64,000 nt of DNA from Thiobacillus sp. (GTDB lineage Bacteria > Pseudomonadota > Gammaproteobacteria > Burkholderiales > Thiobacillaceae). Shown piece after piece: positions 18,158-59,021 of the stretch. Every line of letters begins with the position of its first letter. The stretch's first letter is position 1. Made by a program: the position numbers and the translations under genes. The stretch is taken from the NCBI GenBank assembly GCA_016124745.1, contig WGNC01000006.1:62001-126000 (forward strand), in the 5' to 3' direction. Under the pieces are notes generated by a model. It made no database searches, had not been told where the DNA came from, and was given only the letters and a program-made list of their open reading frames with translations.

Positions 18158-19099
18158 ATGATGTCCGACACGGGCGATAAGGAAGCCACGACGCTTTCCC
18201 GGCAACATGTTGCGGCCTACCTCCAGCACCTCGCGGCCGAGAGGCGGCTTTCTTCGAACACGCTTGAAAGTTACCGGAGGGACCTTCTTTTTTTGCTCCA
18301 GGCGACTGAAGAAAGCGGGAAAGCACTGGCTGACGCAGTGGCCTCCGATGTGCGGGACACGATCGTCAAGCTCAGGAAGAAAAGCCTGTCGCCGGCGAGC
18401 GTGGCCAGACATATATCAAGCTGGCGAGGATTCTATTCATACGCCATCCAGAGATTCGAGTATCTGAACAACCCGTGTGTCGGGCAAAAAGGTCCGAAGG
18501 TAAAACGGGCCCTTCCCAAGACGCTTTCACCCGATAGTTGCGCCCAGCTCCTCGATGGCAAGAAGAAGCAGGATATTGACTCGAATGTCTTGCTGGCACG
18601 TGACCACGCCATGTTTGAGCTGCTTTATTCATCGGGCTTGCGGGTGTCCGAACTGACGGGCATGGACTTCATCGACATTGATCTGAAAGCAGGGGAGGCA
18701 CGGGTTACCGGCAAGGGCAGCAAAACGCGCGTGGTGCCGGTAGGCAGGCAAGCGTGTAAAGCGATCAAGACCTGGTTGAGCTGGCGCCAGGCACTCCTTG
18801 GCGGTAACGATACTCCGGCATTGTTCCTCAGTCGCTGGGGGAGACGCCTTTCGGTGCGCAGCGTACAGAAGCGTCTCGACCACTGGGTCTCGCAGTCCGG
18901 GCTGGGGCAGTCGGTACACCCGCACATGCTCCGCCACGCCTTTGCCAGCCATATGCTTCAATCGTCAGGTGATCTCCGGGCGGTCCAGGAGATGCTCGGC
19001 CACGCCAACATCACCACCACCCAGATCTATACCCACCTGGACTGGCAACACTTGGCGAAGGTGTATGACTCGGCTCACCCCAGGGCGCGCAAGAAATAA
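18158..19099 (+). CDS. xerC: XerC-like tyrosine recombinase
   Basis: A recombinase of about 313 residues. An N-terminal SAM-like core-binding domain (AAYLQHLAAERRLSSNTLESYRRDL) precedes the catalytic domain with the R-K-H-R-H/Y set: Arg in SSGLRVSELTG (about 162), Lys in TGKGSKTR, HMLRHAFASHML (about 255) and GHANITTTQIYTH (about 278-290). It is closest in style to chromosomal XerC. Alternative starts TTG 18155 and ATG 18161 are adjacent. The usual xerC neighbours (dapF, DUF484) are not seen; instead it heads a toxin-antitoxin pair and a conjugation module. It may be the housekeeping gene or, given the dif-like site at 58812, an element-borne Xer integrase. Confidence 0.87.
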   Translation: MMSDTGDKEATTLSRQHVAAYLQHLAAERRLSSNTLESYRRDLLFLLQATEESGKALADAVASDVRDTIVKLRKKSLSPASVARHISSWRGFYSYAIQRFEYLNNPCVGQKGPKVKRALPKTLSPDSCAQLLDGKKKQDIDSNVLLARDHAMFELLYSSGLRVSELTGMDFIDIDLKAGEARVTGKGSKTRVVPVGRQACKAIKTWLSWRQALLGGNDTPALFLSRWGRRLSVRSVQKRLDHWVSQSGLGQSVHPHMLRHAFASHMLQSSGDLRAVQEMLGHANITTTQIYTHLDWQHLAKVYDSAHPRARKK

Positions 19100-19127
19100 A
19101 GTGGGACTTGACTCCCCTTGGTGTGGT

Positions 19128-19144
19128 GATATATTTAATATATC
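19128..19144. promoter_or_regulatory. palindrome upstream of the toxin-antitoxin genes
   Basis: GATATATT and AATATATC are perfect 8-bp arms around one T, 19 bp before the antitoxin start. The place and symmetry fit an operator for antitoxin autorepression, overlapping an AT-rich promoter. Confidence 0.6.
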
Positions 19145-19163
19145 TTTCTGAAGGATTAAGGCC

Positions 19164-20532: not shown

Positions 20533-23500
20533 CTATTCTTTCGTCTCTTCCTTTGCCCCATCAGGCCGGTAGCCAACCTTTTCCTGGAACTGCTCCAGGG
20601 TAGGTTTGGCTCCTGGCACCTTGATTGCCGCGATTTCATTCGGAAGCGCTTGCTGCAGCGATAACGTCATGTCGGCGGTGGCGGTGTCCTCCGCCGTATT
20701 CATGAGCTTGTTGTAGGTCGCCACACTATGCGATTGGGGCGCGGCATCGCCTGCTTCTCCCTGGTAGCGCAACTCTCCTGATTCCTGTTTCGCCTCGTGA
20801 TAGTCCATCGCCTTTTTCTGCTTCTCCTTGCCTTGGTCGTGATAGTCCTGGGCTTTGCCCGGCAGATCGCTGCTGGAATTGGCTGCTGCGGATCCAGCGC
20901 CTACAGGCGCGCCTGAATTGGGCACATCCCTGAGATGGCCCGCATGCAGGGCGCGTATCTGATTTGCCAAAGCCGGATCGTCCATCATGGCCTGTGCCAG
21001 CGCCTGGACTTCCTCTGGTGTGCCACGCACCGCTGTGCCATCCTGGTATGCGGATGGCAATTGGCCACCCTGATCGTATCCCATGGTCTTCAGGCCATCG
21101 AATGCCACCTGGTCGCGTTGTCCGGATGGCGCGGCTTCGACGGATTCGACCAATGCCAACGCGGCATTCGTATTTCCCGGATCCTTGAGCGGATCGTAAC
21201 TGACGCCCACTCCGTGGGACGAGCTTTGATTGGCCTGTTGGGTGAGGTCTTCCGCCTGGCGGAATTCCGCTTGCGCCTGGTCGAGGTGCGTGCGCCGGCT
21301 GCTTAATGTCGCACCTGTAGTTTGGCTGTCCGCATCCTGGCCAAGCACCGAATGGCGGAAATCGCGGTCTTTCTCCAGCCGATCGAAGAATGCCTGCCTC
21401 GCCTCGGCATTGCTCAGCACTGCGTTTTTTTCGCCAGTGCGGCTTTGCTTCTGGATCCCGGCCGCATATTCCTGTGCAATATCAATTCCACCTTTTAGGC
21501 TACCTGTGACTGCCGCTTTCCCGCTTCTCGAATCCCGCGACTGGATAACCCCCCCGTCGGTGGAAGCCTGATCCTTGATGGTTGCCTGTGTCATGGTCTG
21601 GTTGCCACCTAGAGCAATATCGCCACCGGCGTTAGCCCGTACCGAACCTTTCTGCGAAGCTTGATTTCTGGTCGTATAACTGGCGTCGCTCCCTGATTCA
21701 TCTCCTGAACTTGCTGAGGTACCAAATGATCCCGTGAAATCTCCTCCCGAGCTCGATCTGCCGCCAAAGCCACTCTGGTTCGTGGTGGCGAGCGACGACA
21801 GATGGGCGCGGGCTTTTGACAGAATGGATTCTTCTGCCTTCCCTGCAGCGATGGTATGGGCTTGCCCGGCCGATGCATGTTTACCGGCTTGCTGGAGCAG
21901 ACCGGCGTTCTGACCGGCTGTGACAGAAGCCCCCACCCTCAGGGCATTCATAGGTTGCGCTGCGGTTGATTTTCCATTTCCATAGGACGACATCACCGTA
22001 CCGTCCGCTCCAACAGCCTGGTCGATCGCGGCACCATGCCGGTTCATCGGCGCGGTATTCCATTGATCCGCGCTTCTATTGTTCGCACTCCAGTTCCCCA
22101 TGGTGACATTGCCCCATTGGGTGTTGCCAGCGCTGATATTCCCGGTACCGACCTGCGCGCCGGCGGCCTGAGCTGAGGCATTTGCCGGGCTCATGACGCC
22201 TGATATGACGCTGGTGAAAGATGCCGCGCTGACATTGGTCAGCATGTAGGCGATGACCGGTACCGAGAGCGTGAGAATGCCTGCAACCCCCTGGTCGGAA
22301 ATCATGGAGTGCATCAACGCCTGATGGCTTGCGTAGGAGAGGGGATTCATCCCATCGACGGCAGCCTTGGCACCGAGCGTCGCGTACCAGCTGGTGAAAA
22401 AATTCAGCGCAGCGTAAACCGGCGCCCAGAGGTTGATCCATAACAAGGCCATCAGATAGGTTTTGAGAACCAGGCCACCCTTTGATCCAGCCACAATGAT
22501 CAGGAGCATGACGATTGGAAACAGCGCCAGAATCACGATATGGATGGCGTTTCGGATCAGGGGCATGGACGACTCGGCAATCTTGGCCATGGTCCGATAG
22601 CTGCTGTTTGCGCTAGCGGATGCCATCGCTGTCGATAGCGCGACCTGCGCCGATGTCGTATCACCGATCATCTGTGGCACGAAAACCATCGAGTCCGCGA
22701 TCAGGTTGATCATCGCCGCCTGCTTGATGGATTCCTGCGCGGTTTGACTCACCCCGAAAATGAAACTGTCTACGGCAGGTAATTGAGCGGCCACCAGTGC
22801 GGAGGCGGCTGCAGAGGTAGGCGAGCTCGGGTTGAGCATCCTACCCAGGCGGGGCAGGATGTCATTTGAAACATGCGGGTTGATCTGGGCATCAATGTAA
22901 GACCAGGCCTGATCACAGCCGACGATCTTGTAGACGCCTGCAGCGTTGTCATAAACCTGAACAAGCAGCCCGGGGTTCATCTGGGGGGCGATGTCGGCCC
23001 AGATGTCGCCAGACTTCATGATCTGATCGAAAAAAGGCCCGTTGTTGTTCAGTTCCGGGTAAACACAATCCTTGGTCAGGTTGGTCAGGGAGCTGACCAG
23101 ATTGGGATCGTAGAACCGCACGCTCTGTCTATCCTTGATGGCACGCGATCCGAACATGAAGCCGGTCTTCTCAAAGGAAATATCACCAGGAAGCGCAAAA
23201 ACCGTTTCGCTGACTTTGGTAAGCCAATAGCCGATGTGGCTTTCCGCACTGGCGAAAACCGCGAGCCCCAGAGGGACGTTGGCCACTGTATACGTACCGG
23301 AACCACCCGCCACGTCGACCACAACCACGTCTTTCTTGGGCAAGAAGAGTCCCACATACCAGATGGCCAGCATCAGCATGTAGATCGCCGCATCCTCGCC
23401 GCGCGCCTTCACGAAAGTTGTGGCGACGGCAACGAACAGCCCGAATATCGCGAAGACTTTCATCAAGCCGGTGTAGTCGCTCATCGAGGTGAGCATCGCT

Positions 23501-23559
23501 ACAGCGTCGAGCACGTACTTGATCTGCTGGGCGTCCCAATAGGCGTAGATGGTATCCAT
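20533..23559 (-). CDS. traG: F-type conjugation protein TraG
   Basis: A 1008-residue inner-membrane protein. The N-terminal half has the TraG_N membrane layout, with hydrophobic segments near residues 32-48, 60-75, 345-365, 370-390 and 435-455; the C-terminal half is a long periplasmic, Gln/Ser/Ala-rich and charged domain. F TraG is needed for pilus assembly (N-terminal part) and mating-pair stabilisation or entry exclusion contact (C-terminal part). It is the last gene of the operon, 6 bp after traH, and its length is near the F protein. Confidence 0.92.
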   Translation of the reverse strand: MDTIYAYWDAQQIKYVLDAVAMLTSMSDYTGLMKVFAIFGLFVAVATTFVKARGEDAAIYMLMLAIWYVGLFLPKKDVVVVDVAGGSGTYTVANVPLGLAVFASAESHIGYWLTKVSETVFALPGDISFEKTGFMFGSRAIKDRQSVRFYDPNLVSSLTNLTKDCVYPELNNNGPFFDQIMKSGDIWADIAPQMNPGLLVQVYDNAAGVYKIVGCDQAWSYIDAQINPHVSNDILPRLGRMLNPSSPTSAAASALVAAQLPAVDSFIFGVSQTAQESIKQAAMINLIADSMVFVPQMIGDTTSAQVALSTAMASASANSSYRTMAKIAESSMPLIRNAIHIVILALFPIVMLLIIVAGSKGGLVLKTYLMALLWINLWAPVYAALNFFTSWYATLGAKAAVDGMNPLSYASHQALMHSMISDQGVAGILTLSVPVIAYMLTNVSAASFTSVISGVMSPANASAQAAGAQVGTGNISAGNTQWGNVTMGNWSANNRSADQWNTAPMNRHGAAIDQAVGADGTVMSSYGNGKSTAAQPMNALRVGASVTAGQNAGLLQQAGKHASAGQAHTIAAGKAEESILSKARAHLSSLATTNQSGFGGRSSSGGDFTGSFGTSASSGDESGSDASYTTRNQASQKGSVRANAGGDIALGGNQTMTQATIKDQASTDGGVIQSRDSRSGKAAVTGSLKGGIDIAQEYAAGIQKQSRTGEKNAVLSNAEARQAFFDRLEKDRDFRHSVLGQDADSQTTGATLSSRRTHLDQAQAEFRQAEDLTQQANQSSSHGVGVSYDPLKDPGNTNAALALVESVEAAPSGQRDQVAFDGLKTMGYDQGGQLPSAYQDGTAVRGTPEEVQALAQAMMDDPALANQIRALHAGHLRDVPNSGAPVGAGSAAANSSSDLPGKAQDYHDQGKEKQKKAMDYHEAKQESGELRYQGEAGDAAPQSHSVATYNKLMNTAEDTATADMTLSLQQALPNEIAAIKVPGAKPTLEQFQEKVGYRPDGAKEETKE

Positions 23560-23565
23560 GCCTGA

Positions 23566-25035
23566 TCAGCGGCTGCCGAATTCGATATTGGAGGTCAGGC
23601 GCGGGCCAAGGCTGGTGTACATTTGACGCTGGAAGTCCATCATCATTGCCACATTGCCCATTTTCCTGGCGATGTCTTCCTGCTTCAGGCCATAGATCTT
23701 GATGGCCGTATTCTTGATTTCGGCCAGTTTCCCCTGGAAGTCGTCTATCGCCTTGACATCGGCCTTGACCGAAACTGTTTTGGTCTTGTTGAGCGCGTCA
23801 TCGACCTCGCGGCTGATGTCCTGCATTTGGCGGAAAGCGATTTCAGTGGCGATCACTTCCGAGAACCCATCAATGATGCGATCGGCAACAATAGTCGAGC
23901 CACGGCCGCTGTGGATGGACTGGGCGATCATCTGATAAATCGGCGTGCTGGTCATGGCGATCACCTGTAGCGCTTTCGGGTCCGTCAGCGCTGTTCTGGT
24001 GACAATGGCATCCTTCAGCTTATTCAGCTGCTCATATACGATTGCTGTCATCCCCACGGTTGTACGGGGTGTCCCTTCGTCCGTAGCCGAGGCATAGGGA
24101 AGACAATCGGAACCGGACGGGCACTCACGGACCCTTATGGTGTGCGTACCGGACAACGGCCCCAGAAAATCCTCCCACGTGATGGTTGGCTTGAAATATT
24201 CCGTGGTGAAGCCGCTGGCGATGTCGCTGCTATTCCTGAGGAAGGTGATAGTCCCGAAGAGCGAAATGTACAATTCGATTTCTTCATTGGAATACCCTCC
24301 CGCGCGTTCAAGGGCGTCGTAAACGAGGTTGAAATCCGATTTCAGTACCGGTTTCCCCGCGCTGTCCAGGCAAAGCGCGGCATTCACGGTGCATGCCGCG
24401 TCATAGGCGGCCTTCGTATTCGCTGGACTGGTTTGAGTATCTTCCTTGGCATTGAAGAACGATCCATAGGAGCCGGTGAGGGCCGAGCCGAAGACCTGGG
24501 CACGCTGCTCCATATCCATGTTCCGGGTATCCGGCGTGGTACCGACATACTGTTTGATAGCCTGGCAACTGCCGATCTGGGACTGGTTGAGCTGATTCAT
24601 CGTCTTCGACAGGTCGGTCAGAAGCCCGTCGATCTCGGGAGCCATGGTTTTGAGGGCAAGCTGGAAGAAGTAGCCCACGGCGTTCTGCCCGATGTTTCGC
24701 AGCGCATTAACAAACGCATCCATGTTGACGAAGCCATAGGCTCCGAGCCAGGCGTCGATTCCGCCACAACCCGCTTTGTAGCCTGGCGGGGAGAAACTAA
24801 AGAGATTGGTGGCGCGCTGCGGTGCTCGGTATGAGAAGCCTCCTAACGCCATCGTCGTTTGTCCCTGCGACTCGTACACAGCGGAAGGCGTGACATTCAT
24901 CGCCGCTCCTGCTGAATTGAAGTAGTCGTTCATCCAGTCCGACCCGGCCGCGATCGATGTCGTGGCAGGAACGGCCAGTCCCAGGCTCAGGGCCAGCATG
25001 AGGGAGACGGGCTTCAGACGTGTGCTGATTTTCAT
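23566..25035 (-). CDS. traH: F-type conjugation protein TraH
   Basis: A 489-residue exported protein with signal peptide (MKISTRLKPVSLMLALSLGLAVPATTSIAA). It contains the TraH features FNSAGAAMNVTPSAVYESQGQTTMALGGFS, a CGGIDAWLGAYGF motif and C-terminal coiled-coil-prone helices. TraH is a periplasmic pilus-assembly protein interacting with TraF, TraW, TraU and TrbI in F-like systems. It begins 14 bp after traF. Confidence 0.93.
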   Translation of the reverse strand: MKISTRLKPVSLMLALSLGLAVPATTSIAAGSDWMNDYFNSAGAAMNVTPSAVYESQGQTTMALGGFSYRAPQRATNLFSFSPPGYKAGCGGIDAWLGAYGFVNMDAFVNALRNIGQNAVGYFFQLALKTMAPEIDGLLTDLSKTMNQLNQSQIGSCQAIKQYVGTTPDTRNMDMEQRAQVFGSALTGSYGSFFNAKEDTQTSPANTKAAYDAACTVNAALCLDSAGKPVLKSDFNLVYDALERAGGYSNEEIELYISLFGTITFLRNSSDIASGFTTEYFKPTITWEDFLGPLSGTHTIRVRECPSGSDCLPYASATDEGTPRTTVGMTAIVYEQLNKLKDAIVTRTALTDPKALQVIAMTSTPIYQMIAQSIHSGRGSTIVADRIIDGFSEVIATEIAFRQMQDISREVDDALNKTKTVSVKADVKAIDDFQGKLAEIKNTAIKIYGLKQEDIARKMGNVAMMMDFQRQMYTSLGPRLTSNIEFGSR

Positions 25036-25049
25036 GACGGACTCCTTGT

Positions 25050-25865
25050 TCAGAACTCTTGGCCGGGCTGCGTGCGGGTCAACACGCGGATCCGCTCGAC
25101 AATTTCATCAATCGCCAGCGCGCCGCTTCCGATCGGCACGGCCTGCCGGGTTTCCCGATGAACCAGAAACAGCGCGGGCACCATCTGGATGCCCTGGCCA
25201 TTGCTCACGGTCATCGAAATGCCGTTATCGCGCCTGGCATCAGGAAATTGGGGGAGGGTTCCACCGTCCATGCTGACGCCCATCACGGGCAAACCATAAT
25301 TTCGCTCCAGCAGGCGCAGCACCGGCGCTTGCTGATGGCAGTAGGGGCAGTCCGATCGGAAGAAAAACATCAGGCCGTAGTCTCGCGACAGCTCGGCCAG
25401 GGTCTGCTCCTGCGCTTCACGCCGCATATCCTTCTTGTTGAGCTGGGCGAAGGTGGCAGTCGGTGACCGGTTGTTGTAGTCAACCGATGGTGTGGCCCAT
25501 ACCACGCGGCGTGCGGTATCGGCGAAGACCGAACTCTTGTCCATCACATAGGTCTGCGCCTCAAGGTAATTGCGCACGTTGGCTTGGGTGGGCTGCATGA
25601 TGGCCAGGTCTTTTAGCCTGGCCAGCTCCTTCTGCAGTTCTTCCATCGTTGTCATTGCCTTGATGGACTTGGTCTTGGCATCAGCCTTCTTGTCCTTCTT
25701 CACCGGCGGCGCGTCCGGCGGATACCAGTTGAACCCGCGCTCCGGGTTTTGCCACGGTGTATCGTCCCACCAGCCTTTATTTGCAGGCCCCGAGTCGGTG
25801 ATGGCAAACGCTGCCTGGCTTATCAACATAGCCGCTGCAGCAAGCAGGGCAATCGGTTGCTTCAA
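25050..25865 (-). CDS. traF: conjugal transfer protein TraF, thioredoxin-like with intact CxxC
   Basis: A 271-residue periplasmic protein. I place the start at a TTG (25865) that overlaps the stop of the upstream gene (TTGA) and is preceded by GAGAGG; it gives a clean signal peptide (MKQPIALLAAAAMLISQAAFA). The longer in-frame ATG start has a non-signal-like N-terminus. The C-terminal domain is thioredoxin-like with CPYC in FFRSDCPYCHQQAPVL, an active site that F-plasmid TraF lacks, so this protein may be redox-active. It is required for pilus assembly in F-type systems. Confidence 0.87.
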   Translation of the reverse strand: MKQPIALLAAAAMLISQAAFAITDSGPANKGWWDDTPWQNPERGFNWYPPDAPPVKKDKKADAKTKSIKAMTTMEELQKELARLKDLAIMQPTQANVRNYLEAQTYVMDKSSVFADTARRVVWATPSVDYNNRSPTATFAQLNKKDMRREAQEQTLAELSRDYGLMFFFRSDCPYCHQQAPVLRLLERNYGLPVMGVSMDGGTLPQFPDARRDNGISMTVSNGQGIQMVPALFLVHRETRQAVPIGSGALAIDEIVERIRVLTRTQPGQEF

Positions 25866-26266: not shown

Positions 26267-26324
26267 GTTCTGACCATGGTTAGTGACAAAGATGACTTCA
26301 TGATCGCCTTTCATTCCAATCAAT

Positions 26325-29400: not shown

Positions 29401-29403
29401 CGA

Positions 29404-30411: not shown

Positions 30412-30566
30412 TGGCTTCTTTGTCAGCTTGGTGATCAGGCTTTGCAGCCGGTTGACGTCCCAGGCCACGACCCTGGTGCTGCCACAATGCGGCCTGTTGA
30501 TATCTGACCATTCAGCAATTTGAAGGGTCAGTCCGGGACCGGGAGTACAGGGAAAAGCACTCACGT

Positions 30567-31190: not shown

Positions 31191-31191
31191 G

Positions 31192-36212: not shown

Positions 36213-36217
36213 GTTCT

Positions 36218-43570: not shown

Positions 43571-43584
43571 CGTCGTTGTCTCCC

Positions 43585-48594: not shown

Positions 48595-51500
48595 AATATC
48601 TGGAAAGCATCAACCTGGTGCAGTTCTTCCTGTACGAGAGAGAGCACATCCGCGTTTCTGAGGTCACCGGCCTGTTCGGCCCCAACGGCAGCGGCAAGAG
48701 CTCGTTCCTCGATGCCGTCCAGATCGCCATGTTCGGCGCAAACAGCCGTCTCATGGCGCTGAATGCCCAGGCCGACGACAAGAACAAGACGACGCGGTCG
48801 ATTCGCGCCTATTGCCTGGGCCAATACGGCGAGACGCCCGAAGACCGGGTCCGGCCGCATTCGAACACCTATATCACCCTTGTCTGGCGCGACTCGGAAA
48901 CGAACAAGCCCGTCTCCATGGGCGTGTGCATCTATGCCTCCAAGGATCGCGAGCAGCACGACGTGCTGGGACGCTATCTACTGCCGGACGTCGAGTTGAC
49001 GCTGGGAGATCACCTCGAAACGGTCGATGGCAAGGAAAAGCCGCGGGAGTGGCCCGCCTTCAAGCAGCAGCTTCTACAGCGTTCCAAAGTTTCTGGTGAG
49101 GAATGTGTGTTTCAGGACGCCGAACGCTACATTCGCGCCTGTCTGCTCGAATTACGCGGATCGGGCGGTGCACCGTCATACGACGCATTTATCCGTGCCT
49201 TCCGCTTCGCGCTTCGGATGAGCTTCGACAAGACGGTAGACGAAATCGTGCGCAACGACGTGCTCGAGTCCCGGCCGACGAACATCAGGAAGTTCAAGGA
49301 GGTCACCGATTCCTTCCGGCGCCTGGCCGAAATGGTGGCCCATGTCGAGCAGAAGATCGTCGACGGCACCGCGGTCCACGACACCTTCGACAATGCGGCC
49401 AAGGCTTCCAGAAAAGCCGTCACCTGGAAGACCTTGGGATTGGATGTCGCTCTTACACAGGCCAACCAGGCGCACGACGAAGCTCAGGGAGCCATGGAGG
49501 ACGCCCGCGCGGCATTCGAAGGCGCCGACAAGGCTTTCCTTGAGTTGAGCGCCAAACATGCCGAGGCCGACCGGAAAGCGAATGACTGCCGCCGCCTGCG
49601 CGAACAGCATGTCTCGCACGCTGATTATGCCGGGCTGGAAGGCCAGATCAGCGACAACCGGGACCGGGCAGCACGCAAGACAAAGGACATCTTCAATCAG
49701 CTTTCCGCGTTCCGGGGCCTCATGAATAAGGCTGCGGAAGCGGGCGTGCTCGATGACGAAGCCACGCATATCCTGCTCGCCGAAACCCAAAAGCTGTCAG
49801 CGTTCCTCGAACGCTTTGACCAGGCCGAATGGAGTGAAATCGAAGCGCACCTGCAAACAGCCGTGCAGGCTTCTCAAAAAGCCATGCAGGCGCTGGACGC
49901 CGTCGGCGGCACGCTCAACGACCAACTGAAAACCGCCAACGATGACCTCAGACTGGCCACGGAGTCACTTGAGCGGGTCAAGCAAGGCAAAGTGCCGCTC
50001 AGCCAGAATGTCGGGGCCCTGATGCGGGAGCTGCGGGATGAGGGCATCAACCCCGTGGCGGTATGCGATGTCGTTCGGATCACGAAAAAGGAATGGCAGC
50101 CGGCAATCGAGGCCTACCTGGCGAGTAACCTGCAGGCGCTGCTCGTTCCGGAACACGAAGAATGGCGCGCATTCGAGGTCTATCGCGGCCTGACAGGCAG
50201 GCGCGCGGTCTACGGTGCAAAAATCGTCATGGAAAGCCGGCAGCAGATCGGCCGGCGTCCTGAGGACGGATCCGTCGCCGAACTGATCGAAGGCACTGAC
50301 GAGGCAGCGGTTGCCTATTTGCGCAGCCAGTTTGGGGACATGATGCGCGCCGACACCACCGCACAGGCCATGGAACGCGGCAAACGCACCCTGACGCAAG
50401 ACGGGATGCTGGTTGGCAAAGGCACCATCGAACGACTGAAGCTGGTTGTGGAGGGTGATTTGCGCATCGGACGCGATGGTGGCGGCCAGCACCTTGAGTC
50501 CGCCCAAAAACGCCTGTCCGACTGTGAAAAGGCGGTATCGAAGCTCAATTCCCAGAAGCGTGGGATTGAGGCGCTGACCACGGTGCTGCGCGGCATTCCG
50601 CAGGAAGAGCAGGCCCGGACGTTCCTCAAGGGCAACTGGGATGAAGCCGAAAGCGCAAAACTCGCTGCTGCAAGCCTCGAGGGCAAGCTGCAGGGCGCGG
50701 CCGACAAGGAATACGTACAGCTCGGCAAAGATGTGGAACGCTGGTCTGACGAAGCCAGGGCCCTGAATGCTGCCGTTACTGCCGCCAACGGCACACGAGG
50801 CAAAGCTGAGAGCGCATTTGAAGAGCGCAAAGAAGACTTTCAAGTGGCGGCTGCCGGGGTCGAGGTTGCCAGCGAAGCCGCCGAGAAAGCCCGCAAGGAT
50901 CCGGAGTATGACGCCGATTATGCGTCGCCCAAGTGGGATGCCCTCCTTGAAAAGTTCGGTGAAAACTTTGCAGACATGGCGATCCGCTGCAACACGAAAG
51001 TAGCCGATGCTCTCCGCGAAGTCACACGCGAGGTTAGCAATGGAAGCAGACTGCTGGGCGAATTTCTGTCCAAGTACCGGGAGCAGGCCGGCGAAGCAGT
51101 AGTGGAGGACTGGCGCAAGGGACAGGCCTGGATAGCCGATATCCTCAAGCGTCTGCAGGACACCGAACTGCTCGACTACAAGGCGAAGATGGAGAACGCC
51201 TACAAGGTTTCGCAGGAGACATTCAGGAATGACGTCGCCCTGGCGCTGAGCCAGAACATCGACGCGTTGGACATGACGATGGATCAGTTGAACCGGGTGT
51301 TGAAGAAATGCCCCCCCTTCACCAATGGCGAGCGCTACCAGTTCAAACGTGTCGTCCGCCCCCACTTCAAGCAACTGCTCGATTTCGTCAAAAACATCGC
51401 ATCGTACGGGCCGCAGGAGGACCTGCTCGGCGGCGCCGGCGAGATCCCCGCCCAGTTCAAGGAGCTGCTGGAAGACAAGATTGCGCCGGGGGCCGGAAGC

Positions 51501-52040
51501 GTCAAGAGTCCGTTGGATGACTATCGAGAGTTTTACGAATTTGACGTGGAACTCATCCGGGATGACCCGCTGACGGGAAAACCCAAGGTCGTTGGCCACC
51601 TGAGCAAGCGCATCGGGCCGGGATCCGGCGGCGAGCACCGCGCGCCGCTGTACGTGATCGCCGGCGCTGCGCTGGCATCGGCCTATCGCCTCGATCACGG
51701 CAATCGCGACGGCATCAGGCTGATGCTGCTGGACGAAGCGTTCAACAAGATGGACCCGACCAACATCACGGCGACCATGCGCTATCTGCAGGATCTTGGC
51801 CTGCAGATGTTCATGGCCAGCCCTGGCGAGAATCTCGGCGTGCTCACTGCCTTCCTGCACCGCTACTACGACATCGCGAAAGACCCTGTGCGCAATGTGA
51901 TCCTCATCAACGGCCACGATGTCACGGAAGAGACGCGGGAAATGTTCATGTCGGACGACCTGGATGCCCACCCCGAACTCATTGAGCAGGAAGTCAATCG
52001 TATGCACGGTACGACTGCAGCCGTAGTCCCGACAGTGTAG
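48591..52040 (+). CDS. jetC: Wadjet protein JetC (MksB/SMC-like ATPase)
   Basis: A 1149-residue SMC-family ATPase. Walker A GLFGPNGSGKSSFLDA is near residues 27-42; long coiled coils flank a hinge around residues 480-620; the ABC signature GSGGEHRAPLYV is near 1011-1022 and Walker B IRLMLLDEAFNKMD near 1041-1054. It is the DNA loop-extruding motor of Wadjet. The ORF is complete with all ATPase motifs, so the system looks functional. ATG overlaps the jetB stop. Confidence 0.93.
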   Translation: MKYLESINLVQFFLYEREHIRVSEVTGLFGPNGSGKSSFLDAVQIAMFGANSRLMALNAQADDKNKTTRSIRAYCLGQYGETPEDRVRPHSNTYITLVWRDSETNKPVSMGVCIYASKDREQHDVLGRYLLPDVELTLGDHLETVDGKEKPREWPAFKQQLLQRSKVSGEECVFQDAERYIRACLLELRGSGGAPSYDAFIRAFRFALRMSFDKTVDEIVRNDVLESRPTNIRKFKEVTDSFRRLAEMVAHVEQKIVDGTAVHDTFDNAAKASRKAVTWKTLGLDVALTQANQAHDEAQGAMEDARAAFEGADKAFLELSAKHAEADRKANDCRRLREQHVSHADYAGLEGQISDNRDRAARKTKDIFNQLSAFRGLMNKAAEAGVLDDEATHILLAETQKLSAFLERFDQAEWSEIEAHLQTAVQASQKAMQALDAVGGTLNDQLKTANDDLRLATESLERVKQGKVPLSQNVGALMRELRDEGINPVAVCDVVRITKKEWQPAIEAYLASNLQALLVPEHEEWRAFEVYRGLTGRRAVYGAKIVMESRQQIGRRPEDGSVAELIEGTDEAAVAYLRSQFGDMMRADTTAQAMERGKRTLTQDGMLVGKGTIERLKLVVEGDLRIGRDGGGQHLESAQKRLSDCEKAVSKLNSQKRGIEALTTVLRGIPQEEQARTFLKGNWDEAESAKLAAASLEGKLQGAADKEYVQLGKDVERWSDEARALNAAVTAANGTRGKAESAFEERKEDFQVAAAGVEVASEAAEKARKDPEYDADYASPKWDALLEKFGENFADMAIRCNTKVADALREVTREVSNGSRLLGEFLSKYREQAGEAVVEDWRKGQAWIADILKRLQDTELLDYKAKMENAYKVSQETFRNDVALALSQNIDALDMTMDQLNRVLKKCPPFTNGERYQFKRVVRPHFKQLLDFVKNIASYGPQEDLLGGAGEIPAQFKELLEDKIAPGAGSVKSPLDDYREFYEFDVELIRDDPLTGKPKVVGHLSKRIGPGSGGEHRAPLYVIAGAALASAYRLDHGNRDGIRLMLLDEAFNKMDPTNITATMRYLQDLGLQMFMASPGENLGVLTAFLHRYYDIAKDPVRNVILINGHDVTEETREMFMSDDLDAHPELIEQEVNRMHGTTAAVVPTV

Positions 52041-52047
52041 AAATCCC

Positions 52048-53244
52048 ATGGACGCAAAAGCACACAAGGCCCTCAAGAAACTGCTTGAGTACGGGGATAA
52101 GGCAAGCGCCGGTATTCGCACCAACAAGCCGGCACTCACCAAGTCGCAACTCACCGACTATCAGGCGACGCGTGCGCTGGCAGAAAAGGAGTCCTTTGAA
52201 GCTGCGATGAAGGCTGTCCGGGCAATCGGCGCCGTGACCCTTACATGGGAGAAAGGGGTTGGCGAAGAAGGCTTCATCCAGCGCGTTGACCTGGTCGACC
52301 TAGACTCTCTGGCGAAGTTTCTTGGAGCAGACACCGCCGGGAGCCGCCTTGAGAAGGCGGCCTCGCAGTTCGCCTCTTTGCTGCCGGAGTTTCCAGTTCT
52401 GAATGACGTACTGGCTCGCTGGGCCAACCTGAAGAAGGTTCGCACCTTCGGACCCGAGCATGTCCAGGATTGGGTCGATGCCGCGCGTATCGTCAGCTTC
52501 ATGATCGCCAACCGTGAGAACAGTACGGTTGACGAGCCGATCCGTGAAGTCAGCGCACGATTGTTCAAGGACAGCAAGCGCATCGAGAAACTGGCCGCAC
52601 CGGTTGATGTGCTGTTAACTGGGGATGTCGACGCCGAGATCCGTGAACCCGTCGACGTATGGCAGGAAATCGGCTTGTTCCGAGAGGAACAGCCCGTTCG
52701 CATGGCCGGTCGGGTGGTTATCGCGCGCACCCGCGTCACTGCGCTTCTGGACGAGCCGTACGGAGCATTTTCCGCATCATCTGTAACCGGGCTGGCCGGC
52801 ATCCCGAAAATGGTGATGACCATAGAAAACCAGACCACTTTCCATAGCGAGGCAAAACGCCGCCATGATGAGGAAGTCTTGCTCATTTATACCGCCGGGA
52901 TGCCCACCCCAGCATGGCGAGCCATGTATGTTCGGCTGCTTGGCGGCTTGCCGCCAGGTGTGCCCATCTATCACTGGGGCGATATTGACGAAGGCGGGTT
53001 CAGGATTGCCTCCATATTGGCTCAGGATGCCAGATCAGCTGGGCATACCCTTCAACCGTGGATGATGCATCCAGACGACGTTCCAGAGGATCGACGCGTT
53101 AAAGCCAGACCGCACACACTAGAGCGAATCCGGCGTTTTGCGAGTGCCGCAGGTTGGGGAACGCTGGGTGAGGAAATTGCAACAGCAGGCTTCACTGTCG
53201 AACAGGAAGGACTACCCATTGTTGGGTTAGGGCAGCCCCAATAG
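52048..53244 (+). CDS. jetD: Wadjet nuclease JetD (MksG, TOPRIM fold, DUF3322/DUF2220)
   Basis: A 398-residue protein. The N-terminal arm (DUF3322-like, YGDKASAGIRTNKPALTKSQLTDY) precedes a C-terminal TOPRIM domain, with the catalytic Glu in VMTIENQTTF (about residue 258) and the acidic pair in HWGDIDEGGFRIA (about 309-315). JetD is the topoisomerase VI-like nuclease subunit that cleaves circular DNA after loop extrusion stalls. It starts 7 bp after jetC. With JetA, JetB and JetC in this order it makes a complete type I Wadjet. Confidence 0.92.
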   Translation: MDAKAHKALKKLLEYGDKASAGIRTNKPALTKSQLTDYQATRALAEKESFEAAMKAVRAIGAVTLTWEKGVGEEGFIQRVDLVDLDSLAKFLGADTAGSRLEKAASQFASLLPEFPVLNDVLARWANLKKVRTFGPEHVQDWVDAARIVSFMIANRENSTVDEPIREVSARLFKDSKRIEKLAAPVDVLLTGDVDAEIREPVDVWQEIGLFREEQPVRMAGRVVIARTRVTALLDEPYGAFSASSVTGLAGIPKMVMTIENQTTFHSEAKRRHDEEVLLIYTAGMPTPAWRAMYVRLLGGLPPGVPIYHWGDIDEGGFRIASILAQDARSAGHTLQPWMMHPDDVPEDRRVKARPHTLERIRRFASAAGWGTLGEEIATAGFTVEQEGLPIVGLGQPQ

Positions 53245-53387: not shown

Positions 53388-53828
53388 GTGCCCGTGGCTT
53401 CCATTGAAGAACCCAACAATCAGGATCATCCTGTCACGCTCTTCGCACGCATTGCGGCACGATTCGAACAAATCGAACTGTCCCACTGGACGGCCGTTGT
53501 GTTTGCATGGCTTGCCCGTTATGACGGGATCGATCGATGCTATTTTGAAGACGAAGAGGAATCCCCAGCCCATGAGGTGCTTCATTGCATCTCCGAACTG
53601 GAGCATGGGACCACAGACGACGAAGTAGCCCACGCGCTATCTCAGCTTGAATTCCTTACTTGGCGTGTCCGCCATCCCGAAACCTTGGAGCGCTGGGATC
53701 CGTTCTCACTATCCCTCAGTGATTTTATCGGCGGGGATTTATCGCCCAATTGCTGGAAATGGGAAGGGACTTTCCCGTCTTCATCCGTAATTGCCTCATG
53801 GCTCATCGAACAGCTCCCACACCGCTGA
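53388..53828 (+). CDS. hypothetical protein, translationally coupled to traI
   Basis: A 146-residue acidic, soluble protein with GTG start (PVASIEEPNNQDHPVTLFARI). I do not recognise a family; WDPFSLSLSDFIGGDLSPNCWKWEG is a distinctive Trp/Asp-rich segment. Its TGA overlaps the most likely ATG of traI (TGATG), which supports that it is real and expressed with the relaxase. A relaxosome accessory or a Wadjet-linked factor are both possible; nothing proves either. Confidence 0.6.
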   Translation: MPVASIEEPNNQDHPVTLFARIAARFEQIELSHWTAVVFAWLARYDGIDRCYFEDEEESPAHEVLHCISELEHGTTDDEVAHALSQLEFLTWRVRHPETLERWDPFSLSLSDFIGGDLSPNCWKWEGTFPSSSVIASWLIEQLPHR

Positions 53829-55900
53829 TGTCCGGTGATTGGCTGCTCATTGCCTCTGGAGCCTTGGGAGTCTGCGGCGTATGGGTCGTTTGGCGTATTT
53901 CCCGCCACACCGATCACCCGGATCCCAACCATTCAACGCCATCCGGTAGCGATTCAATGGCAGCCAACCATATCAAGGTTCTCCCTGGCAAAGCCGTCCT
54001 GGATCAACTCAACCTCCAAGCCCTGGTCGACGGGTGTCGTGACCGCATGGGATTCGACTACACTCTGTTCCACCAAGATTGCATGCCCGTCATCGAGCGG
54101 GCTGCGGAATGGACTCAACTGCTTCCAGCCTCGGAATCACACCATCACGCGCAGCCTGGTGGCCTCATGACCCATATGATGGAGTCGGCAGCACACGCGC
54201 TACGCTACCGGCAGGGCTATCTGCTTCCGGTCGGAGCAGCCCCCGAGGAAATCCCGGCTCGCAAGCACCGCTGGACTTACGCGGTGTTCCTTGCCGCGCT
54301 ACTGCATGACATTGGAAGGCCTATGGCCGATATCAACGTCCACGTTCTCCGATCGAGAAAATACTGTGGCAAGTGGCAGCCTCTTGCTGGCTCGATGCTG
54401 GATCAGGGGTTGACGCATTACACGTTGAATTTCGAGATCACGCGGGATTACGACCTGCACAAGAAACTGCCTATCGTGCTGTTCCAGCGGCTCGTTCCTT
54501 CCCATGTTCTCGCTTGGCTTGCCGATGACGTACAGCTCATGGGCGATTTGACGAGCTACCTTTCGGGGGACGACCAAGACAAGGGGGTGCTGCGAGAAAT
54601 CGTCACACGCGCCGACTCCGAGTCGGTCAAGAACAACCTGATGCAGGGACCGCGCACTCGCTTTGCCTCCGCCCGGTCGGTGCCACTGATCGAGCGCCTG
54701 ATGCAAGCCTTGCGCCTGATGCTGGAAGAGGGGCGACTGAGCCTGAATAGGGCGGGGTCCCATGGCTGGGTTTACGATGGAAAAATCTGGTTCGTGTCCA
54801 AGCGGCTGGCCGACGAGGTACGCCAGTTCCTGACTGAACGCGAAAGTGGGGAGGGCATACCTGGCAAGGATAAGAACGATCGCCTTTTCGATACCTGGCA
54901 AGAGTACGGTGCCTTGATCCCCACCAGTGAAAACCGTGCTGTGTGGCAGGTCATGGTCAGTCTCGATGAAGGGTGGGATCAAAAGCTGACCATGCTGTGC
55001 TTCTCACTCGACAAACTGTTCCAGTCCCCGGTTCTTTACCCGGAAATCATGAGAGGCAAGATCATTGCCGGAAAACAGGATGCCTCATACATCCAGCCGC
55101 TCGATTCGGAATCCGAGCCATATATTGGTTCCATGAGTGATTCTGGCGTTGAGCCAGCCACCAACCCATTAGAGGATCCGGCCAACCAGCTGTCGCTTGT
55201 CATACCGCAGCCCGACCCAACCTCCCCGCCGAACATCGAAGAGCTGCCGAGGCGGACCACCACGGCTCTTCCCCCCATTCGCCCGCCGGCACAGCCCGGA
55301 GCGGCCGCTTTATCTGAACAGAAGGGCGCGGCTGAGGAAGCAGGCTTTCTCGATGAAGGCGACACCGCAATCAAACATTCAGCGAAACCCAAGCCCCCTG
55401 CTGCTGCAGCATTGAAGCCGGTTGCGCCGGCAGGACAGACAGCGGCCAGGCCTAAGCCTGGCTCTAAAAAGAAGGAACCCTCTGGTGCAGCTATGCGGTT
55501 CATGCGCTGGATTCAGGAGGGGCTCTCGGAAGGCAGCATGTCGTACAACCGCGCGGACGCCATGATTCACTTCGTTGACGAGGGGATGATGCTGGTTTCC
55601 CCAGTGATTTTTCGCAAGTTCGCCGAACTGTTCGGGGAGGAGGGCGATGGCACGCCATCGGATAGAGCGGGGAGCAAGCTGGGGACAGGCATCCAGCGCC
55701 AGGTTACCAATGCTGGCTGGAATCTGGTGACCGGAGAGAAGAAGAGCAACATCCAGCGTTACATGGTGATCGGCGCCGATGGCGAGGGCAAGAAGCTTAT
55801 CTCTGGCGTGGTCATACTGGATCCTGTTCGATTCGTGAACCCACTTCCGCCGAATAATCCCTGCATTGTCAGGTTCGACAAACCCATCGAACACGCCTGA
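53828..55900 (+). CDS. traI: MobH-family relaxase TraI
   Basis: A 690-residue relaxase of the TraI_2/MobH type. It has an N-terminal membrane-like segment (residues 4-24, WLLIASGALGVCGVWVVW), the MobH motif HHHAQPGGLMTHMMES (about 104-119), and an HD-type metal motif LLHDIGRPMAD (about 158-168). The C-terminal part has a proline-rich linker and a DUF1528-like domain. MobH relaxases occur in SXT/R391, PFGI-1 and the gonococcal island. The ATG at 53828 overlaps the upstream stop; ATG 53798 is an in-frame alternative. Confidence 0.9.
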   Translation: MSGDWLLIASGALGVCGVWVVWRISRHTDHPDPNHSTPSGSDSMAANHIKVLPGKAVLDQLNLQALVDGCRDRMGFDYTLFHQDCMPVIERAAEWTQLLPASESHHHAQPGGLMTHMMESAAHALRYRQGYLLPVGAAPEEIPARKHRWTYAVFLAALLHDIGRPMADINVHVLRSRKYCGKWQPLAGSMLDQGLTHYTLNFEITRDYDLHKKLPIVLFQRLVPSHVLAWLADDVQLMGDLTSYLSGDDQDKGVLREIVTRADSESVKNNLMQGPRTRFASARSVPLIERLMQALRLMLEEGRLSLNRAGSHGWVYDGKIWFVSKRLADEVRQFLTERESGEGIPGKDKNDRLFDTWQEYGALIPTSENRAVWQVMVSLDEGWDQKLTMLCFSLDKLFQSPVLYPEIMRGKIIAGKQDASYIQPLDSESEPYIGSMSDSGVEPATNPLEDPANQLSLVIPQPDPTSPPNIEELPRRTTTALPPIRPPAQPGAAALSEQKGAAEEAGFLDEGDTAIKHSAKPKPPAAAALKPVAPAGQTAARPKPGSKKKEPSGAAMRFMRWIQEGLSEGSMSYNRADAMIHFVDEGMMLVSPVIFRKFAELFGEEGDGTPSDRAGSKLGTGIQRQVTNAGWNLVTGEKKSNIQRYMVIGADGEGKKLISGVVILDPVRFVNPLPPNNPCIVRFDKPIEHA

Positions 55901-55901
55901 C

Positions 55902-57962
55902 ATGAGCTATCCCATCGAAAACCTGTTCCGGCCCGCGGTCGAATACGTGCCGGCCTTTGCTTCGTTGTCCGGCGCCATTCTCCTGACGAGCGCTCACGAA
56001 TGGTTTTTTCTGCCAAAGGAGCTGATCGTGACAGCCGCTGCCGGCATGGTCCTGCATGCCGGCGTGCGACTGAGACAGGGTATTCGGGTATCCCGATTTC
56101 AGCGCAACCTTACTAGGCTGCCTAAGTACGTCATTCCTACCAGCGAAATTCCCGTCTCAAAAAGCCGACTTTTCCTCGGTCTTGGATTCAAGTGGGATCA
56201 GCGCCATACCCAGCGCCTGGCGCTGGCGCGCGATCCCAAGAACCGTCGTTACATCACCCAATCCGGCCTCTATTTCTGGGCGCGTAGTTTCGAGTTCCGC
56301 CACGAAGGACGCGGCGGCGCCTCGGGCTGGCTGGCGCGGCAGACCAGGATGGATGTCTGGTGGAATCCGGTTACTCCATTGCCGCCTGTCGGCGGCGATC
56401 CGATCATTCACGGCCTGGAGCCGAACGAAACGGAAATCAGCATGGATCTGGTCGAGCGGCCCGGTCACATGGTCGTGCTGGGCACCACACGGGTCGGTAA
56501 ATCACGCCTCGCCGAGGTGCTCATTACACAGGACATTCGGCGAGGCGACGTGGTGATCGTATTCGACCCCAAGGGCGATGCCGGTCTGATGACCCGCTGC
56601 TACATTGAGGCGGCCATGGCGGGGCGCGAGTTCTTCATGTTTCACTTGGGCTACCCAGACCAGTCCGCACGTTACAACCCGATCGGTAATTTTGCCCGAA
56701 CCACCGAGGTCAGCACCCGTATCGCTGGTCAGCTCCCGGGCGAAGGACAGTCTGCCGCGTTCAAGGAATTTGTCTGGCGCTTCGTGAACGTGATCGCACG
56801 CGCGCGCACCACACTCGGTTACCGTCCGGATTACCGCATGATTTATGAGGATGCGGTCAATATCGATGCCTTGGCGTTGGAATACTTACGCTTCTGGCTT
56901 GACCGGGAACAGCCCGGCTGGAATGCGGCGGTTGATGCCATAGAGATGGATAAGACCCAGATTCAGCAGGCAATGAAATCGGGGCGGACGATGGATGCCA
57001 TGAAAATCCTGTTGTTCGTCCGCGAGAATAATCTGCATGACCCGATAGCGAACGGCCTGGCATCGATCCTGTCGAACGACCGCAGCTATTTCGAGAAACT
57101 GGTGTCCAGTCTCTATCCCTTGCTGGAAAAACTCACCACCGGAAAAACCGCGCAGATACTGTCTCCGCAGTACGACGACCCGACTGATCCAAGACCAATC
57201 TTCGACTGGATGAGCGTCATCGAACGCGGCGCGGTGGTCTATGTCGGGCTCGATTCGCTCTCTGATTACGAAGTGGCTGGTGCAGTGGGCAACGCCATGT
57301 TCGCCGACCTGACATCGATCGCCGGCCAGACCTACAAGTTCGAGCAGGGCTACGGGCTGTCCACTGCCATCCCCAAGCGCAAACTGTCCATCCATGCGGA
57401 CGAGTTCAACGAGCTGATCGGCGACGAATTCATCCCGCTACTGAACAAGGCCGGCGGTGCGGGATTCCAAGTATCGGTCTATACTCAGACTTGGGCCGAC
57501 GTGGAAGCCCGCATCGGCAACAAGGCGAAGGCATCCCAGATTGGCGGCAACCTCAATACCTTGATCATGCTACGGGTCAAGAACAAGGAAACCGCCGAAA
57601 TTCTCACCGATCAGCTCCCGGATGTGCAGCTGGTCACCTCGATTCAGGCCAGTGCTGCCACGGACAGTTCAGATGATCGTGAGGTGTTGTCTTTCACCAC
57701 ACGGAACGAAGACCGGATCAGCACCCAGGAATCCCCCATGTTGTCGCCCGCAGATCTGGTGCAGTTGCCCAAGGGGCAGGCTTTTGCGCTTATAGAAGGC
57801 GGCCAGCTCTACAAAATCAGGCTCCCTCTGTTCGACCCCGACGAAGCGCACCCCATTCCTGCGTCGTTGGAAGACATTGCCGCGAGCATGCGTCAGAAAT
57901 ACGACACGCACGGCACCGAGACGGAAAATCTGGTCGTTGAAGGGAAGGGCAGTGGCTTCTAG
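55902..57962 (+). CDS. traD: type IV coupling protein TraD
   Basis: A 686-residue VirD4/TraD-like ATPase. It has N-terminal membrane segments (about residues 15-50), Walker A LGTTRVGKSRLAEVL (about 193-207), Walker B VIVFDPKGDAG (about 217-227) and the ALKG-like helicase motifs with LSIHADEFNELIGDEFIPLLNKAGGAG. It recruits the TraI-DNA complex to the channel. The longer ORF upstream overlaps traI; the ATG at 55902, 1 bp after the traI stop, is the sensible start. Confidence 0.93.
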   Translation: MSYPIENLFRPAVEYVPAFASLSGAILLTSAHEWFFLPKELIVTAAAGMVLHAGVRLRQGIRVSRFQRNLTRLPKYVIPTSEIPVSKSRLFLGLGFKWDQRHTQRLALARDPKNRRYITQSGLYFWARSFEFRHEGRGGASGWLARQTRMDVWWNPVTPLPPVGGDPIIHGLEPNETEISMDLVERPGHMVVLGTTRVGKSRLAEVLITQDIRRGDVVIVFDPKGDAGLMTRCYIEAAMAGREFFMFHLGYPDQSARYNPIGNFARTTEVSTRIAGQLPGEGQSAAFKEFVWRFVNVIARARTTLGYRPDYRMIYEDAVNIDALALEYLRFWLDREQPGWNAAVDAIEMDKTQIQQAMKSGRTMDAMKILLFVRENNLHDPIANGLASILSNDRSYFEKLVSSLYPLLEKLTTGKTAQILSPQYDDPTDPRPIFDWMSVIERGAVVYVGLDSLSDYEVAGAVGNAMFADLTSIAGQTYKFEQGYGLSTAIPKRKLSIHADEFNELIGDEFIPLLNKAGGAGFQVSVYTQTWADVEARIGNKAKASQIGGNLNTLIMLRVKNKETAEILTDQLPDVQLVTSIQASAATDSSDDREVLSFTTRNEDRISTQESPMLSPADLVQLPKGQAFALIEGGQLYKIRLPLFDPDEAHPIPASLEDIAASMRQKYDTHGTETENLVVEGKGSGF

Positions 57963-58677
57963 GAATTCCGGTCTCTATGACAGCAATGTGGCAGTCGCCT
58001 TTCTGTGGCCATTGAAATGGCTTTTTGGGGCGCTCTTGCTATATGTCATGCTTGGCCTGATCGCCCTCACCGCGGCTTTCCTGTTTGCCAAATATCAATG
58101 GACGGATCCTGTGCAAGCTGCTGATACTTTGTTCCAGTCGGAAACTTCACGCGTCAAAGAGCTTGTACGGCCTGGAAGCCACGCCGCCGGCCTTTCCACG
58201 CTGACTGAGCAGACCCAGCAGTGGACTTACTGGCTTTTTTTCAAGGCGACATCACTCCATGAAGCCACCTATGCCTATTTCTCTGGATATCAGGTCAACG
58301 AGGTTGACCGGATGTACCTCAGCCAGTTCGTTGCGCGCAATGTGCGGGAAATCTATCTGGCTATGAACGTGATTCAGATCTACGGGATCAGAATTGGCTT
58401 CGTGATGGCTGCGATCCCTTTGTTTATCCTGTTGTACGTCTTGGCTGGCGTAGACGGCCTGACCGAGCGTTATATCCGCCGCGCGTGCGCAGGACGCGAA
58501 TCGGCGGATCTGCACAAAATTGGACGCCTCGCGAAGCTGATGTTCTTCGCATCCGGGATCACGCTGTATCTTTGCCTGCCGGTTGCAATGAGCCCGTTCT
58601 GGGTCATTGCGCCGCTGGCGCTTGTATTTGCGGTGTCCACACGGGTTCAGTGGCAGTTTTACAAAAAATATTTTTGA
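57952..58677 (+). CDS. DUF4400-like integrating conjugative element membrane protein
   Basis: A 241-residue membrane protein with hydrophobic segments near residues 16-45, 150-172, 200-215 and 218-230. DUF4400/PFL_4697-type proteins follow traD in MobH elements, and the pattern WPLKWLFGALLLYVMLGLIA and EATYAYFSGYQVNEVDRMYL fits. The GTG at 57952, preceded by GAAGGGAAGGG and overlapping the traD end by 11 bp, is the probable start. Function is unknown; a TraD or entry-exclusion partner is possible. It is the last element gene before the dif-like site. Confidence 0.75.
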   Translation: MASRNSGLYDSNVAVAFLWPLKWLFGALLLYVMLGLIALTAAFLFAKYQWTDPVQAADTLFQSETSRVKELVRPGSHAAGLSTLTEQTQQWTYWLFFKATSLHEATYAYFSGYQVNEVDRMYLSQFVARNVREIYLAMNVIQIYGIRIGFVMAAIPLFILLYVLAGVDGLTERYIRRACAGRESADLHKIGRLAKLMFFASGITLYLCLPVAMSPFWVIAPLALVFAVSTRVQWQFYKKYF

Positions 58678-59021
58678 GAGGGTCAGGCGTGAATGTTGAC
58701 AAGTCGAAATAATTTGTGTCTGATGATGGCCTAGTAGGGTCAGGGATGTGGCCAGACGAGTCTACTTGAGCAGCGCGATCGCCCCATAGGGGCTTATTCA
58801 TGACCCGATAATATGCACATAATGTATATTATGTTAAATGTTGTATGGGCAAGGGAAACCTGCAATGCCCTTCGTTCGTCGGCAGGAAACCCCGACCGAT
58901 TTTCTGCTTGATGGGATTCACTGGTAGATTTGCAGCATGAGCGCGCCCCCGAGACTTTGCCGGCCTTCCTTCATCACTTGAAGCGCACAACGCCCGCGCC
59001 CCGGTCACCTCAAGGACCACC
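58678..59021. other. intergenic region between the element and chromosomal genes
   Basis: About 340 bp without a gene. It contains a hairpin GCCCC-ATA-GGGGC (58781-58793), the dif-like site at 58812-58839, and the leader of the ChaN-like gene. This is the likely right junction of the element. Confidence 0.6.
58812..58839 (+). other. dif: dif-like chromosome-dimer resolution / Xer recombination site
   Basis: The 11-6-11 layout is intact: right (XerD-side) arm TTATGTTAAAT at 58829-58839, centre TGTATA at 58823-58828, left (XerC-side) arm TATGCACATAA at 58812-58822. From memory, the right arm and centre are identical to Escherichia coli dif and the left arm matches at 8 of 11 positions. A match this long is not expected by chance in high-GC DNA. 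The divergent arm faces the conjugative element. Confidence 0.85.

Follow-up and report, generated by a model that had tools for sequence, protein, structure and literature searches.

In most bacteria with circular chromosomes, dif is the site at which chromosome dimers are resolved before division. Because dif is needed for dimer resolution, an element resident at this site has to move while leaving chromosome segregation intact. The gonococcal genetic island (GGI) is, to our knowledge, the best known conjugative element at dif. Here we analysed a 64,000-base stretch of Thiobacillus sp. (the window), which is contig C16:62001-126000 of assembly G000, the window's own genome. An earlier note on this DNA had proposed a GGI-like conjugative element abutting a dif site. 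By comparison with relatives we read the locus, with high confidence, as the right part of an integrative and conjugative element of GGI layout that lies between two hybrid dif sites (the left and right attachment sites, attL and attR), carries its own XerC-like and XerD-like recombinases and contains FtsK-orienting polar sequences (KOPS) pointing to attR; its insertion at the chromosomal dif would be by Xer-type site-specific recombination.

The clc/PAGI-2-type islands target a tRNA gene, whereas the target here is dif. They share with the present elements a parA-parB-topB cluster at the island border (PMC3334931). The GGI, compared by description and not by sequence, has in common with the present elements integration at dif, a parA-parB-DUF2857-topB cluster, an F-type type IV secretion system (T4SS) with LtgX and DsbC, and a MobH TraI followed by TraD and a small membrane protein (PMC4207684, PMC3334931). 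The elements described here run, in the GGI layout, attL-parA-parB-topB, F-type T4SS, MobH traI-traD-DUF4400-attR, so that the likeness drawn in the earlier note extends even to the parA-parB-topB end, outside the window. They differ from the GGI in size (81-166 kb versus 57 kb) and in encoding XerC-like and XerD-like proteins. Both arms of the site diverge here, whereas difGGI is described as divergent in the XerD arm (PMC5357621). GGI-like elements are flanked by one perfect and one imperfect dif; the present ones have two dif-type sites, both hybrid and neither a perfect genus dif. Integrative mobile elements exploiting Xer (IMEX) also lie at dif with a dif-like attachment site but are defined by host recombinases (PMC9765430), whereas a private Xer pair is present here. 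LME-1 of Legionella is likewise an element with a dif mimic that is integrated at dif; it differs in using a single-recombinase host system, and the part of its description available to us mentions no element-borne Xer pair. XerT-type elements and ICEPan resemble the present elements in carrying Xer-like recombinases on mobile DNA. Helicobacter islands require XerT for their transfer (PMC8138268), XerC and XerD orthologs have been described on an island in umuDC, and ICEPan differs in integrating at tRNA-Phe (both PMC4458695). For relatives of the GGI, the available part of a 2014 survey reports no determined insertion site (PMC4207684). A partial literature search found no description of an element-borne Xer pair at dif or of KOPS in such elements; the new features are the element-encoded XerC-like and XerD-like recombinases and the attR-directed KOPS inside the elements. 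Neither the KOPS polarity nor the XerD-like partner, encoded outside the window, was part of the earlier note.

The right end of the element is marked by the 28-base attR site, which starts 135 bp past the end of the DUF4400 open reading frame (ORF) at 58677 (Table 1). It differs at 3 of 28 positions from E. coli dif. When the window was simulated 20 times with a first-order Markov model, the best matches had 10-12 mismatches, and the next distinct place in the window has 12, so the dif-like 28-mer that the earlier note placed behind the last transfer gene holds up. Across the 3,345,709-base, 48-contig assembly no other place comes within 3 mismatches of the 24-base dif core. A first search of 35 same-genus relatives gave ACTTCGCATAATGTATATTATGTTAAAT as the common genus dif, and another group had the altered XerC arm TATGCACATAA seen in the window. 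Two of the genomes with an attR of the window's type (type A) have one XerD-arm base changed. Where the flanks of A-type attR sites were read (12 sites), a conserved tail of about 40 bases precedes the site and differing sequence follows it, just as when an element end has been joined to several distinct chromosomes. The altered XerC arm recurs as an element end across the genus, bearing out the suggestion in the earlier note that the divergent arm facing the element came from the element.

Table 1. Features of the element and its right flank (window positions unless a contig is named)
Feature	Position	Strand	Remark
attR, hybrid dif	58812-58839	+	TATGCACATAA-TGTATA-TTATGTTAAAT; type seen in 15 of 56 genus genomes
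attR XerC arm	58812-58822	+	element-derived
attR core TGTATA	58823-58828	+	
attR XerD arm	58829-58839	+	chromosomal
Element right-end tail	58772-58811	+	GCCCC..GGGGC inverted repeat; kept in 12 of 15 attR-A sites (the 12 with flank read)
Element interior (right part)	1-58811	.	colinear with complete G031 element
XerC-like recombinase	18155-19099	+	TIGR02224, 344.5 bits (cut-off 335.15); invariant catalytic residues kept
XerD-like partner	C16:27371-28348	-	33.7 kb to the left of window position 1
12 KOPS GGGNAGGG toward attR	6135-57949	+	starts 6135, 6510, 10654, 25251, 33870, 34710, 37033, 39570, 45661, 53761, 54848, 57942
F-type T4SS: TraG, TraH, TraF-like, TraN (two ORFs), TrbC, TraU, TraW, TraC, TraV, DsbC-like, TraB, TraK, TraE	20533-38983	-	relatives in all four elements compared
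SLT transglycosylase (LtgX-like)	40189-40836	-	PF01464
MobH relaxase TraI	53750-55900	+	NF041494, 333 bits (cut-off 200)
Coupling protein TraD (SXT/TOL type)	55866-57962	+	TIGR03754, 851 bits (cut-off 647.55)
DUF4400 protein (position of Yaa)	57877-58677	+	PF14348
Cargo: TetR regulator, CMD, AhpC/TSA, DsrE_2 proteins	14310-17004	+	
Cargo: universal stress protein, sulfate permease	42716-45063	-	
Cargo: WYL regulator, Wadjet defence genes	45588-53244	+	
JetA	46442-47917	+	
DUF4194 protein, JetB by position	47845-48594	+	
SbcC/SMC-type ATPase, JetC by position	48591-52040	+	
JetD	52048-53244	+	
Right flank outside element: ChaN-like and M1 peptidase genes	59022-62236	+	

The left end was located with a 17-mer probe (chromosomal XerC arm plus TGTATA, up to 2 mismatches) in 23 genomes. 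The probe was found in 14 of the 23. In 13 of these it runs on into a foreign XerD arm with a conserved tail behind it, and in G030 another foreign arm follows. G000 carries its attL, ACTTCGCATAA-TGTATA-TTACCAAATCC, on the minus strand of contig C13, ending at 19884. With attL there, the element comprises 19,884 plus 120,839 bases and any unsequenced gap (at least 140.7 kb), and window positions 1-58839 are all element. This corrects the earlier note, which had the element start at 18158 with the XerC-like gene at its other end; that gene is internal. The note's failure to find a second dif copy left of traG was confirmed, as neither a scan for dif matches nor the attL probe found a second dif-type site in the window, because the left end lies outside it. 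A left end within the window was ruled out on the same ground.

Sites were then counted with one pattern (up to 1 mismatch) in 56 genus genomes, and type-B right ends were searched in 36 of these and in one G062 contig. attL was present in 20 genomes and attR in 19 (15 of type A and 4 B-like), both were present in 15, and 24 had at least one. An ordinary-type dif without a hybrid site occurred in 21, with small variants in G067, G014 and G022 and extra half-sites beside dif in G011 and G002; no site was found in 11 of the 56. B-type sites have TTTCACGATTC or TTCCACGATTC as the attL XerD arm and AATTCGTGGAA or ACTTCGTGGAA as the attR XerC arm (G062, G030, G016), and attR of G003 is a further variant. 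The central TGTATA is identical in all listed A- and B-type sites. The genes of the two element ends follow the same distribution. Relatives of TraI (at least 64% identity) were found in 12 genomes and of ParA (at least 89%), counting a single fragment, in 16; all of these genomes are among the 24 hybrid-site carriers. Further TraI matches were a 61-residue fragment in the carrier G029 and a distant match (31%) in G032.

Flanks of filled and empty sites were compared between 18 filled and 18 empty genomes and matched at 91-95% in the best pairs. Starting at its first base, the right flank of G016 matches empty G079 at 92% and, up to base 3055, empty G005 at 93%; the right flank of G060 matches G005 at 92-93% from base 3. 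On the left, G016 and G005 agree at 92% along 3.9 kb, and nearest the site G016 has an additional 3.2 kb of DNA. Flank matches were also seen for G008 and G068 (95%, from base 31, and 318 in G068) and for G013 and G024 (92%, from base 150, and 609 in G024). The first left-flank matches were set aside as proof, as they partly reflect small dif-flanked modules. A close empty relative of G000 itself was not found among the 18 empty genomes, and the G000 sites (6.6 kb left, 25 kb right) showed little synteny with ten empty genomes. The paired hybrid sites, the genomes with only an ordinary dif and the homologous empty and filled flanks bear out the integration at dif that the earlier note had proposed. 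An ARAGORN scan of the window found no tRNA genes, which rules out a tRNA target inside it.

The small modules just mentioned are about 1.5-1.9 kb long, each starts with a ...CGCATAATGTATA half-site, and they are stacked left of dif or attL (G011 C1:1427197-1430797; G013:C62:110-1673; G002:C3:64246-65772). The longest ORFs of two G011 modules have 229-231 codons. They are perhaps non-autonomous dif modules.

Three elements are complete on one contig, measuring 118,685 bp in G031, 166,049 bp in G016 and 81,170 bp in G062. Three stretches of the G031 element, namely its left 12 kb, its T4SS (94%) and its right 5 kb, are colinear with the G000 pieces. In G016 the A element ends in TATGCACATAA-TGTATA-TTCCACGAAGT and is followed by ParA of a second element, a tandem pair at dif. 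If both ends of this second element, which is of type B (junction C18:293311, attR C6:40939), belong together, its attP arms would be ACTTCGTGGAA and TTCCACGAAGT, which are perfect inverted repeats. Nine assemblies have a single end (5 attL only, 4 attR only), as might be seen if the element were an immobile remnant fixed at the terminus. We regard a remnant as very improbable: of the 97 ORFs in the G031 element, 42 have relatives in each of the four elements compared, the recombinases show a ratio of nonsynonymous to synonymous substitution rates (dN/dS) of 0.09-0.21, the element ends of G000 and G031 are 94% identical with no flank match seen between the two, and G016 carries the tandem array.

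The element-borne recombinases were identified with a XerD query on the 56 genus genomes and a XerC query on 36 of them. A full-length XerC-like gene turned up in 9 genomes, a full-length XerD-like gene in 8 and both in 7, all among the 24 hybrid-site genomes. The XerC-like protein of G000 is 59-65% identical to 20 chromosomal XerC of the genus and 95-96% identical to those of six other A-type elements. Its partner scores below the TIGR02225 cut-off (308.5 versus 329.6 bits), and we call it XerD-like only; it is 46-50% identical to host XerD matches and groups with XerD, not XerC, in a tree. The host pair of G000 is encoded by separate genes, XerC on C40 and XerD on C7. The tree held 56 of 57 rows (host XerD row L137 left out) and supported host XerC (20 rows) at 100/100, element XerD (8) at 99/97 and host XerD (19) at 90/89. 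Relative to the G000 copy, dN/dS was 0.09-0.21 in all 14 comparisons, of 15, that allowed its computation, including 8 for the XerC-like gene. The substitution rates indicate that the element XerC-like and XerD-like genes are under purifying selection, and the tree sets them apart from the host pair.

Host XerCD alone might integrate and excise the element, leaving its own pair to do something else such as multimer resolution of the excised circle. Such a division of labour is possible, if somewhat doubtful. It has in its favour that known IMEX rely on host Xer (PMC9765430, PMC5357621) and that each hybrid site retains the core TGTATA and one host arm, but it sits less easily with the finding of full-length element-type recombinases in hybrid-site genomes only (XerC query on 36 of the 56). 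The order and orientation of the two genes are moreover the same in A and B elements, and both arms and both proteins differ between the two types.

Outside the genus, ParA relatives (E of 1e-50 or lower) were found in 29 of 399 genomes of the order, 27 of them from other genera. Three of 28 loci from these 27 genomes (those of G143, G288 and G346) have a dif half-site (up to 2 mismatches) in the 500 bp upstream of parA; none of 560 shuffled controls had fewer than 5 mismatches. G288 has a second XerD-like gene between its two sites, G143 an extra XerC-like gene 15 kb from parA, and the G346 element a weak XerC-like match (25%). The G288 locus (C10:667074-741526) is a 74-kb stretch of another family between two dif-like sites, with its own XerD-like gene. 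G346 (C1:1273000-1355893) has a canonical dif flanked by an element on each side with divergent parA genes; the element on the right measures 55 kb and has a further dif-like site at its end.

KOPS polarity was assessed by counting the KOPS motif GGGNAGGG on both strands. Left of attR in the window one copy, at 18510, opposes the twelve in Table 1; right of attR there are 0 forward and 3 opposed. Across whole elements the ratio of sites toward attR to sites opposed was 26:4 in G000, 23:3 in G031, 27:5 in G016 and 16:3 in G062, and in G000 the 74 kb beyond attR gave 4:19. The empty sites show the chromosomal background: within 20 kb on each side of dif G011 had 7:0 and 0:7, and in the single-contig genome G024 (22 samples of 20 kb) the counts were 35:9 left of dif and 9:23 right, which puts dif at the reversal of KOPS polarity, with the GC skew changing sign 40-81 kb beyond dif. 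In other families the dif-flanked G288 element gave 0:8 and the two G346 elements beside canonical dif 0:5 and 2:0 (small numbers, and the outer end of the left one was chosen by us).

Strand composition, gene direction or common descent could by themselves produce such polarity, with no selection by FtsK. A few other 8-mers are equally polar and the polarity lies mainly in regions common to the elements: counts in unique regions alone were low (1:0 and 1:2 on the two G000 contigs, then 5:1, 3:1 and 7:2), placing most of the signal in the shared core. Of the 16 forward G062 sites, 4 have a KOPS at the corresponding position of at least one A element, but just 2 do in G000. Third-order Markov simulations reached the observed difference in 0 of 60 runs for each of the four elements, GGGNAGGG ranked 2nd of 9627, 1st of 9026, 3rd of 10685 and 14th of 5324 patterns in polarity, and the G288 and G346 elements also each point to one flanking dif, whereas a conjugative element on another G062 contig gave 3:2 (few sites). 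An origin of the polarity from composition, gene direction or descent alone is therefore unlikely.

Several observations weigh against an integrative element with its own Xer pair and directed KOPS. Excision as a circle and conjugative transfer are themselves inferred. Because attL of G000 is on the separate contig C13, the proposed join to C16 rests on colinearity with G031 and on the presence of one attL and one attR. The recombinase pair is incomplete in some carriers, many of them fragmented metagenome-assembled genomes (G003 and G060 without the XerD-like gene, G013 without the XerC-like gene). G028, in which no site was found, has a 152-residue XerC-like fragment (94%), and G022, with an ordinary-type dif, has a 63-residue C-terminal XerC-like fragment (89%); as the C-terminus of host XerC is conserved, this fragment may belong to host XerC. 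In the tree the nine element XerC rows fall outside host XerC and form one clade in just 19% of bootstraps; the bootstrap is unsettled and long branches meet. The eight element XerD-like proteins keep E183, E184 and W188 but are without E119, all four being FtsK-gamma contacts in E. coli numbering (PMC5052618). As key contacts are conserved, FtsK-independence of the element XerD is not claimed. Close to dif in G024, KOPS counts over 20 kb to the left and 20 kb to the right were 2:2 and 0:2, which is little polarity. G061 (contamination 10%) has attL on its contig C33 and a full canonical dif (C146:5073-5096) about 9 kb from TraI with no att site between, possibly through contamination or a rearranged element. 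Finally, contig C33 of G000 has one half-site with 1 mismatch that looks like chance.

Of the two hybrid dif sites around the element, attL consists of the chromosomal XerC arm, TGTATA and the element XerD arm, and attR of the element XerC arm, TGTATA and the chromosomal XerD arm. For this element we propose the following cycle. From these hybrid arms the circular form in G000 would carry attP as TATGCACATAA-TGTATA-TTACCAAATCC, and a crossover within the shared 6-bp core TGTATA would integrate the circle. The MobH relaxase, TraD and the F-type T4SS would transfer the excised circle. It seems somewhat more likely than not that the element-borne pair is matched to the divergent arms of the element and acts at the hybrid sites either by itself or in combination with the host pair. 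We think it similarly probable that attR, with its intact host XerD arm, serves after insertion as the working dif of the host, and that KOPS polarity sends FtsK through the element to stop at attR, so that segregation is kept and excision disfavoured. KOPS could in this way set which site FtsK meets last.

The genes named in the earlier note are present, among them an XerC family member above the NCBIfam cut-off, F-type tra genes, a DsbC-like gene, MobH TraI, SXT/TOL TraD and an SLT transglycosylase. The right end has MobH TraI, SXT/TOL TraD and DUF4400 in a row; in the GGI, Yaa comes after the coupling protein (PMC4207684). The left end on contig C13 encodes ParA, a ParB-like protein, DUF2857, an AcaB-like protein, a TopB-like DNA topoisomerase and an S49 peptidase. 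Cargo varies, with Wadjet, sulfate permease and stress protein genes in the window and restriction-type genes to its left; in G031 the Wadjet block occupies another position of the element. Also inside the element, at C16:30457-32382, is a third tyrosine recombinase (Phage_integrase with DUF3701), which possibly belongs to a nested cargo island.

The A and B attachment types, the tandem stacking and a similar KOPS convergence in dif-flanked elements from two other families suggest that residence at dif may be a general lifestyle, with the GGI as one simplified case. This family may have taken over the dimer-resolution locus, with its own Xer pair co-evolved with its own half-sites, a hybrid dif as the only full site of the host and KOPS that make FtsK treat the element as replichore, a proposal for and against which we find the balance even. 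A dif-resident family outside Neisseria is now available whose ends are defined and for which empty sites, a tandem array, private recombinases and FtsK-directing motifs are described. This opens to direct testing how an element is stable despite flanking recombination sites and whether it partially replaces host dimer resolution.

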